From a virus, in IMG/VR virus record IMGVR_UViG_3300005738_000024, positions 1-24,861 of that record: a stretch of 24,861 bases of DNA; one strand, written 5' to 3'. Positions 19,753 through 20,873 of this stretch are shown here, one piece after another. The position numbers were made by a program, and so were the translations under genes. Below the pieces are notes generated by a model. That model worked only from the letters and a program-made list of their open reading frames with translations. It was not told the DNA's origin and ran no database searches. Positions within the stretch are counted from its first letter, which is position 1; each line of letters starts with the position of its first letter.

Positions 19753-19983
19753 TTATTCATCAAATACTTTACACATTGGGGAACCAGGGTGATCATCACA
19801 GAACTTATCTAGAACTTTATCTTGATGTCTGTTCTGTGGGTCAGCAATCTTACCTTCTGTCTTTGGATCCCACTCATCAGGTGAGTGTTCTTCATTAGCA
19901 TGGAAGTCTACCTTGTATTCATTCCACTTATCATTTGCATCATAGAGTGGATCGGATGGATCTCTTTGCTTAGGTTGTGACAT
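19753..19983 (-). CDS. CP12-like Calvin-cycle inhibitor
   Basis: A 76-aa hydrophilic protein whose C-terminus, LDKFCDDHPGSPMCKVFDE, closely matches the C-terminal loop of cyanobacterial CP12 (YCDDNPxAxECRVYxD): two cysteines (C62, C71) spaced by eight residues, then K-V-F-D-E. In CP12 this disulfide loop binds GAPDH, and the protein locks GAPDH and PRK in an inactive complex, slowing CO2 fixation. Many cyanophages carry a cp12 gene. Here the N-terminal cysteine pair is missing and the usual AWDxVEEL core is not obvious, so residues 1-55 (rich in Asp/Glu/His/Lys) differ from host CP12. The gene follows the 58-aa gene by three bases and precedes thyX. Confidence 0.72.
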   Translation of the reverse strand: MSQPKQRDPSDPLYDANDKWNEYKVDFHANEEHSPDEWDPKTEGKIADPQNRHQDKVLDKFCDDHPGSPMCKVFDE

Positions 19984-20344: not shown

Positions 20345-20373
20345 ATTATAGTATAAAAAAGAGGGGTAGTCAA
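20345..20373 (-). promoter_or_regulatory. Sigma70 promoter, TTGACT-17-TATAAT
   Basis: On the minus strand TTGACT (20373-20368) and TATAAT (20350-20345) are 17 bases apart. Transcription would start near 20338 and serve the small genes, the CP12-like gene, thyX, phoH, the nuclease and gp33. A TACTA-ATTA-TAGTA inverted repeat (20340-20353) is centred on the -10. The -35 box lies in the loop of the terminator hairpin of the preceding gene. Confidence 0.8.
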
Positions 20374-20377
20374 CCCC
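20355..20377 (-). terminator. Rho-independent terminator overlapping a promoter
   Basis: On the minus strand GGGG (20377-20374) pairs with CCCC (20366-20363) across a seven-base loop, TTGACTA, followed by TC and a run of six T (20360-20355). It ends transcripts from the 55-aa DUF4278-like gene. Its loop and T-run are also the -35 box and part of the spacer of the next promoter. Confidence 0.7.
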
Positions 20378-20399
20378 CCCTTTAATTAAACATCAAGTA

Positions 20400-20567
20400 T
20401 CACTTGGTGTATGTGCGACCACGATAACAGAATGTGCCGTGGGGTTCCTTTAATTCAACACAACGTGTAGTATATTCAACACCACGATATGCAGCGTGAG
20501 TAATCTGTGCGTTGTGAAGAGCAGATGCTTTGTTGATCTGCTTACGGATGATGTTAAGTGTGTTCAT
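20400..20567 (-). CDS. DUF4278-like small protein, 55 aa
   Basis: The protein starts MNTLNIIRKQINKASALHNA and ends with two YRG motifs: AAYRGVEYTT and FCYRGRTYTK. Paired YRGxxY motifs about 20 residues apart are typical of DUF4278, a small family common in cyanobacteria and their phages. I chose the ATG at 20567 because it has a strong AGGAG ribosome site eight bases upstream; longer frames start without one. The function is unknown. It lies 44 bases downstream of the riboswitch-controlled gene and is probably cotranscribed with it. Confidence 0.75.
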   Translation of the reverse strand: MNTLNIIRKQINKASALHNAQITHAAYRGVEYTTRCVELKEPHGTFCYRGRTYTK

Positions 20568-20611
20568 GATTGTTACTCCTGAAGTTGAGGTTGTTTTAAG
20601 ACCCCGTTCCT

Positions 20612-20779
20612 TCAGTCGTTTGCGTCCCAATACCACTCACAATCTGGAGCAGAATCCTTTAAGGTTTCTACTAACTCAACCTTTAGTAAATTACTAAGGT
20701 TTTGATTTGCCTCAATCTTCAGCATGATAGCATCAGTTTGAGTGCAGGTGAGTGTTGTGTAGAACAATAATTCTAGCAT
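20612..20779 (-). CDS. Small protein under riboswitch control, 55 aa
   Basis: The protein reads MLELLFYTTLTCTQTDAIML, then KIEANQNLSNLLKVELVETL, and ends PDCEWYWDAND. The N-terminal hydrophobic stretch could be a membrane or buried helix; two cysteines and an acidic, tryptophan-rich C-terminus follow. GGAGG lies 11 bases before the ATG, inside the leader element described at 20785-20838. Short peptides are the typical genes behind Downstream-peptide glutamine riboswitches. It does not resemble the basic IF7/IF17 inhibitors of glutamine synthetase, so that role is not supported. Family and function are unknown. Confidence 0.75.
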   Translation of the reverse strand: MLELLFYTTLTCTQTDAIMLKIEANQNLSNLLKVELVETLKDSAPDCEWYWDAND

Positions 20780-20784
20780 GGGAT

Positions 20785-20838
20785 GAACGCCTCCGTTCCG
20801 CGACTTACTTGCGTCCCACCCGAGAGTGGGATGAACGT
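20785..20838 (-). promoter_or_regulatory. Glutamine riboswitch candidate (glnA / Downstream-peptide class)
   Basis: The predicted transcript starts about where this element begins. On the minus strand it reads CGTTCATCC, a CCCAC/GTGGG hairpin, then GGACGCAAGTAAG, then GGAACG. Those blocks, in that order, match the consensus of glnA/Downstream-peptide RNAs, which bind L-glutamine. The closing stem P1 would pair CGTTC (20837-20833) with GAACG (20798-20794). A second CGTTCATCCCA copy follows at 20789-20779 and can pair with the same GAACG, leaving GAGG, the ribosome site, in a four-base loop. This gives a plausible switch: with ligand, P1 forms and the ribosome site is freed. Known members occur in marine cyanobacteria and cyanophages upstream of short genes, as here. 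Ligand and switching are inferred. Confidence 0.78.
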
Positions 20839-20844
20839 ATGGTA

Positions 20845-20873
20845 ATTATACCATAACTATTTATTGTTGTCAA
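20845..20873 (-). promoter_or_regulatory. Sigma70 promoter, TTGACA-17-TATAAT, with palindrome
   Basis: On the minus strand TTGACA (20873-20868) and TATAAT (20850-20845) are 17 bases apart. The predicted start near 20838 coincides with the first base of the riboswitch. The -10 sits in a perfect inverted repeat, TATGGTA-ATTA-TACCATA (20838-20855). The spacer also contains AATAAATA (minus strand, 20865-20858), a late-promoter-like motif. Confidence 0.82.

Follow-up and report, generated by a model that had tools for sequence, protein, structure and literature searches.

The window analysed here, a stretch of 24,861 nucleotides corresponding to positions 1 to 24,861 of the IMG/VR record IMGVR_UViG_3300005738_000024, is a fragment of a T4-like cyanophage (Kyanoviridae). 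By blast, it matches S-RIM44 and Syn1 over full length, and its gene order is the same as in Syn1, a Vellamovirus. On the minus strand, about 480 nt form a self-contained phage cassette, which is composed of a promoter, two tandem glutamine-type aptamers, a nested open reading frame (ORF), a DUF4278-like gene and a terminator. The element is kept across hundreds of cyanophage records. Its features in the window are as follows.

20845 to 20873, minus strand: sigma-70 type promoter, TTGACA-17-TATAAT, with 12/12 consensus matches.
20794 to 20837, minus strand: aptamer 1 (compact), with P1 formed by CGTTC (20837-20833) and GAACG (20798-20794), a P2 hairpin and the core GACGCAAGTAAG; identified by cmscan and P2 covariation.
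20785 to 20798, minus strand: competing local hairpin GAACG-GAGG-CGTTC, its loop holding the very likely ribosome site of the nested ORF; covariation and folding.
20779 to 20789, minus strand: 5' half of split aptamer 2, consisting of CGTTC, A and the P2 5' arm TCCCA; covaries with the 3' half on the other side of the ORF.
20612 to 20779, minus strand: nested 55-aa ORF (phrog_504, E = 3.5e-25; T4-GC_430), in the P2 loop of aptamer 2.
20605 to 20629, minus strand: 3' half of split aptamer 2, TGGGACGCAAACGACTGAAGGAACG; identity with locus L203 and P2 covariation.
20579 to 20615, minus strand: anti-ribosome-site helix, CTGAAG (20615-20610) with CTTCAG (20584-20579); covariation and folding.
20400 to 20567, minus strand: output gene, 55 aa, phrog_545 (E = 1.6e-33), DUF4278-like.
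20358 to 20383, minus strand: terminator-like hairpin with a T run, end of the cassette.

An 11/12 promoter-like site (20345-20373, minus strand) overlaps the terminator-like hairpin, just 5' of the next small gene (phrog_878). A 76-aa protein encoded at 19753-19983 (minus strand) has a CP12-like C-terminus (E = 4e-4, just below the Pfam cut-off).

The original prediction, a glutamine riboswitch starting at the transcription start, was built on short motifs that are all present on the minus strand: CGTTC at 20837-20833, the P2 arms TCCCAC/GTGGGA, GGACGCAAGTAAG and a GGAACG ending at 20794. The 12/12 promoter ends just before the first aptamer base, and the predicted transcript start, near 20840, approximately coincides with that base. 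The presence of a glutamine-type aptamer in a cyanophage is also borne out: the match is beyond chance by cmscan, the element is conserved, and the P2 arms of the compact aptamers covary (97 unique arm pairs, 0/5000 shuffles). In a 451-nt stretch, the compact aptamer (20840-20786, minus strand) scores 28.0 bits with Glutamine-II (RF01704; E = 5e-5) and 24.2 bits with Glutamine (RF01739). The Rfam gathering scores are 33 and 35 bits, respectively, and a scan of the whole window at gathering thresholds therefore gives zero matches.

Relatives without an inserted ORF pass the Glutamine cut-off, at 35.3-43.6 bits. Aptamer 2 of such loci gives single matches of 38.1 (L314), 35.5 (L319), 35.4 (L330) and 35.3 bits (L326), and matches spanning both aptamers reach 38.4-43.6 bits, with 41.1 bits in the phage isolate ACG-2014f. 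One relative (L224) tops the Glutamine-II gathering score, with 34.0 bits. The Infernal comparison proposed along with the prediction thus falls short for the window copy and succeeds for the ORF-less relatives; the class, uncertain from the window scores alone, is probably better settled by theirs. A glnA motif has been annotated in cyanophage S-CREM1 with 44.0 bits over 99 nt (PMC9964418), and known annotations of this kind would match in length a hit spanning two aptamers. The P1 and P2 helices and conserved core that characterize RF01739 are found here, with invariant core columns and a P2 that covaries in both compact and split forms. P1 hardly varies across elements and is uninformative, so that there is little covariation support for P1 itself; for the same reason, the use of P1 covariation to arbitrate between its two possible partners failed. 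Two aptamers of the same class before one gene, as in tandem riboswitches, are found in the ORF-less compact-compact relatives and in ACG-2014f. In aptamer 1 of this isolate (L531 1180-1210; CGTTCAACCC...GGGTCG), the U-A at the base of P2 is replaced by A-U, which suggests one P2 pair beyond the counted model.

The 11-base word CGTTCATCCCA occurs twice, at 20837-20827 and 20789-20779, as had been noticed. Both copies had been assigned to a single 3' half; a second one, at 20629-20605, had been missed. Sequence comparison gives good support to the view that a second aptamer has the second CGTTCATCCCA as its 5' half and, about 150 nt downstream, TGGGACGCAAACGACTGAAGGAACG as its 3' half, over the last codons and stop of the ORF. 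As these halves flank the 55-aa ORF, the whole ORF lies within the P2 loop. The final A of the 5' arm TCCCA is the A of the ATG of the nested ORF, and the 3' half overlaps its codons W-D-A-N-D and the TGA stop (20614-20612). Both halves in the window, CGTTCATCCC (5') and GGGACGCAAACGACTGAAGGAACGGGG (3'), recur in aptamer 2 of L203, which has no ORF. In loci fetched by protein similarity, the final codons of the 55-aa ORF run into a 3' half, GGGACGCAAACGACTRAAGGAACG, and CGTTCATCCC stands directly before the ATG.

In about 380 loci, each 3' half was joined to the nearest 5' half, with P2 disregarded. The distances between halves form two groups, one compact and the other of 144-549 nt. In the long group, the P2 arms match their own partner and not those of other loci (CTTATGG/CCATAAG, CTATGG/CCATAG, CCTCA/TGAGG, CTCAC/GTGAG, CCTTA/TAAGG). 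Across the ORFs of about 245 distinct cyanophage elements, P2 covaries: 75 unique arm pairs have 4.19 contiguous pairs versus 2.88 when shuffled (0/5000 shuffles, a figure that, like all the permutation counts, overstates independence because the sequences are related), and C-G, U-A, A-U and G-C pairs are all present. For 54 distinct arm combinations, 88% of cells are paired in register as against at most 52% when slid, and changes on both sides number 37, compared with 15.9 (s.d. 3.5) in shuffles (0/500). The covariation was found again in 69 loci fetched later and separately (39 unique arm pairs, 0/5000 shuffles; paired fraction 0.76 in register and no more than 0.44 when slid). The split aptamer 2 gave no match with the RF01739 model, which does not accommodate a loop as long as an ORF.

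One ORF fits the loop in 241/245 unique split elements and in 65/68 of the later set. Its start codon lies 9-21 nt past the C of CGTTC, and exactly at +10 in 211/241; its stop lies inside or just before the 3' half (241/245 elements), and contiguous P2 extends into the AUG in 199/245. Relatives of the nested ORFs differ far more at third (0.48-0.49) than at second codon positions (0.17-0.18), a bias indicating selection at the protein level. The loop ORFs belong to phrog_504, phrog_6471 and phrog_13397, some being without family, and the same 3' half terminates ORFs of several unrelated families. In ORF-less relatives, compact aptamers have identical flanks. The arrangements seen are compact-compact, compact-ORF (the window), ORF-compact, ORF-ORF and, in L377, three aptamers. 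In L018/L211, a third glutamine-type aptamer (L018 1709-2258) has an extended P2, CCCATCAGAT with ATCTGAATGGG, and a 549-nt loop that holds a 182-aa HNH or endonuclease VII-like gene, which looks like a mobile element inserted beside aptamer 2.

The invariance of the last four codons was discarded as evidence, being circular in loci picked by that same string; in loci found by protein similarity, which are close relatives of the query, the ending GAC-GCA-AAC/CAC-GAC still dominates. The nested proteins of the window (20612-20779), L036, L149, L201 and L233 belong to different families and have one plan, a short hydrophobic N-terminus followed by two cysteines about 30-45 residues apart. To judge by this plan, they may be helical peptides that are exported and held by disulfide bonds.

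Only a few bases, usually 3-4, separate GAACG in aptamer 1 from CGTTC in aptamer 2, and the two form the predicted local hairpin with GAGG in its loop. Its pairing has no exceptions: in 249 unique contexts, it is GAACG/CGTTC in 231 and CAACG/CGTTG in 18, with 0 mismatched. The duplicated arm had been proposed as an expression platform, and the covariation of this competing hairpin is in agreement; the same arm is in addition the 5' half of the aptamer that encloses the ORF. In the CAACG/CGTTG variant, the local hairpin is preserved at the price of one mismatch in P1 of each aptamer, and carriers of this variant may be switches stuck in one state. Carriers such as L018, L067, L095, L099 and L160 often lack the GGAG ribosome site (loop GTTC). 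With an ORF in the next aptamer, the linker between the P1 helices has GGAG in 136/164 cases; without one, in 0/25. GGAG is therefore very likely the ribosome site of the nested ORF.

A further helix joins the two genes. CTRAAG, which belongs to the core of aptamer 2 and holds the ORF stop, pairs with CTTYAG beside the AGGAG of the next gene. The two sides covary in unique contexts (TAA-T 84, TAA-C 0, TGA-C 40, TGA-T 33). In the window, CTGAAG (20615-20610) comprises the stop codon of the nested ORF and part of the aptamer 2 core, and CTTCAG (20584-20579) adjoins AGGAG (20580-20576), the ribosome site of the DUF4278-like gene.

Unconstrained folding of the window transcript gives 0.99 for the long-range P2, 0.91 for the local hairpin and 1.00 for the anti-ribosome-site helix, and both P1 helices are nearly absent; this predicted fold is plausibly the ligand-free off state. 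Mean P2 closure in 80 elements is 0.82 with natural ORFs versus 0.47 with codon-permuted ones, natural ORFs being higher in 72/80, so the nested message itself seems folded in such a way that its ends stay together. The main physical difficulty is energetic: simultaneous folding of both aptamers is modelled to lie 14 kcal/mol above the off state. Weak glutamine binding could not repay so much, and co-transcriptional folding or tertiary contacts must help.

The output protein of the window resembles DUF4278 (PF14105) with E = 7e-4 and 20.3 bits, for a cut-off of 25.3; relatives at the same position score 21.1-28.5 bits, one being above the cut-off. The DUF4278-like gene is present even where the 55-aa ORF is absent, and comparison of the loci suggests that this gene, not the 55-aa ORF, is the conserved output of the switch. 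The main reading of the original prediction, that glutamine frees the ribosome site of the 55-aa peptide, is not supported. Since folding of aptamer 2 puts the AUG of this ORF in P2, glutamine may switch the nested ORF off, not on. The glutamine synthetase inactivating factor IF17 has DUF4278 as its N-terminal part; in marine picocyanobacteria type 2 glutamine riboswitches precede DUF4278 genes, and with both types of glutamine riboswitch expression goes up with glutamine (PMC6316151). The phage cassette appears to retain the sensor and the type of output and to add genes within the sensor.

Taken at the level of sequence, the cassette is probably a tandem translational on-switch for the DUF4278 gene, in which the start of the nested ORF is clamped once aptamer 2 folds. 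The architecture is well supported; the regulation is what we infer. At low glutamine, the local hairpin and the anti-ribosome-site helix would keep the DUF4278 gene off. At high glutamine, both P1 helices would form together, being linked through their competition with one shared hairpin. The stop-codon region would then be absorbed by aptamer 2 and the DUF4278 gene translated, and the start codon of the nested ORF would be clamped in P2, giving reciprocal use of the two genes. Conversely, translation of the nested ORF would open aptamer 2. Because P2 is part of the fold predicted without ligand, the clamp may not need glutamine. A broader reading, to which we give slightly less than an even chance, is that of a gene fully enclosed by its own metabolite sensor, with translation and folding mutually exclusive, and of gene-in-loop chains that share arms, so that one ligand would set several small genes.

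Other explanations were weighed against this switch. The covariation of the local hairpin is perfect and GGAG occurs in its loop only with a following ORF, as would be expected if there were a single compact aptamer, its duplicated arm hiding the ribosome site of the 55-aa peptide until glutamine frees it, and if the second 3' half were coding sequence only. We consider this improbable, because P2 covaries across the ORF, aptamer 2 scores above the Rfam cut-off in relatives that have this core and no ORF, and ORFs from several unrelated families end in an identical 3' half. The P2 loop might instead be a tolerant landing site, aptamer 2 serving the DUF4278 gene and the nested ORF being an unregulated passenger. 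Forms with and without ORF coexist between the same flanks, several families occupy the loop, including the HNH or endonuclease VII-like gene of L018/L211, and P2 is predicted to form without ligand. A passenger would hardly be expected to have its ATG at +10 from CGTTC in 211/241 and a contiguous P2 into the AUG in 199/245, and the ribosome site, added between the P1 helices only with a following ORF, looks like deliberate coupling; such a passenger is unlikely, with perhaps one chance in a handful.

Translational coupling would fit the covariation of the stop codon with its partner in the anti-ribosome-site helix: ribosomes terminating at the nested stop would cover CTGAAG and open the DUF4278 ribosome site, and the aptamers would tune translation of the nested ORF, which drives the second gene. 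The same helix is found in ORF-less relatives, however, where no ribosome terminates, and there is little probability in this explanation. Promoter-stem-loop cassettes have been reported in T4-type phages, and the element can be likened to them as a DNA-level linker repeat that aids gene shuffling and has no ligand. It is indeed a self-contained cassette with promoter and terminator, and varied ORFs stand between constant flanks. With three covarying helices, an aptamer core common to glutamine riboswitches and matches passing Rfam cut-offs, a linker repeat is very improbable.

The phage element shares with type 1 glutamine riboswitches (glnA motif, RF01739) the P1 CGUUC/GAACG, the P2 hairpin, the GACG-AAGUA core and GGAACG; tandem copies are known in this class, and the ORF-less phage relatives pass its cut-off. 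It differs by the complete gene in the P2 loop of one aptamer and by the compact copy of the window, which scores below the cut-off. Type 2 riboswitches (Downstream-peptide motif, RF01704) likewise stand before short ORFs and have a DUF4278 output in marine picocyanobacteria, whereas the phage element is without most of the type 2 3' hairpin and has 28.0 bits for a cut-off of 33. Tandem (pseudo-cooperative) glutamine riboswitches comprise 157 doublets and 4 triplets (PMC9481103), with two or three aptamers before one gene as in the phage, where there is additional pairing between adjacent P1 strands. The survey admitted tandems only without an intervening ORF, and nested forms would consequently have been missed. 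Cyanobacterial IF17 (gifB)/DUF4278 proteins also have a glutamine-type aptamer before their gene; the phage protein differs in having only 55 aa and a putative function.

Homing endonuclease genes occupy loops of self-splicing introns. The phage arrangement resembles these in having an ORF in a peripheral loop of a structured RNA, and one phage loop has an HNH-type gene; in contrast, the phage RNA is an aptamer and not a ribozyme, and its closing helix takes in the start codon and, in many cases, the stop codon.

Outside phages, the strict split pattern with a gap of 130-160 nt was found in 0/400 Cyanobiaceae genomes, as against 6/8 phage genomes. Both unmatched phage genomes carry the core variant GACGCACACGAC, so that a host form with an altered core could be missed too. 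A scan of bacterial genomes with the aptamer-core pattern gave mostly chance matches and served only to reach cyanobacterial genomes. Text searches of the literature, partial in their coverage, returned no description of an ORF inside a riboswitch aptamer loop.

The gene-in-aptamer arrangement in viruses of ocean cyanobacteria appears to be undescribed, and it may tie two viral genes to the nitrogen state of the host. Riboswitch aptamers are taken to be compact leaders before the genes under their control. Covariance-model searches and tandem surveys assume this; an aptamer that closes over an entire gene is therefore invisible to both. Covarying arms flanking an ORF offer a search rule for other gene-in-loop switches. 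If the proposed mechanism is true, host glutamine would set two or three small phage genes during infection, one of which resembles the N-terminal part of the host's own glutamine-synthetase inhibitor, and a connection between host nitrogen state and the expression of phage genes could then be tested directly.
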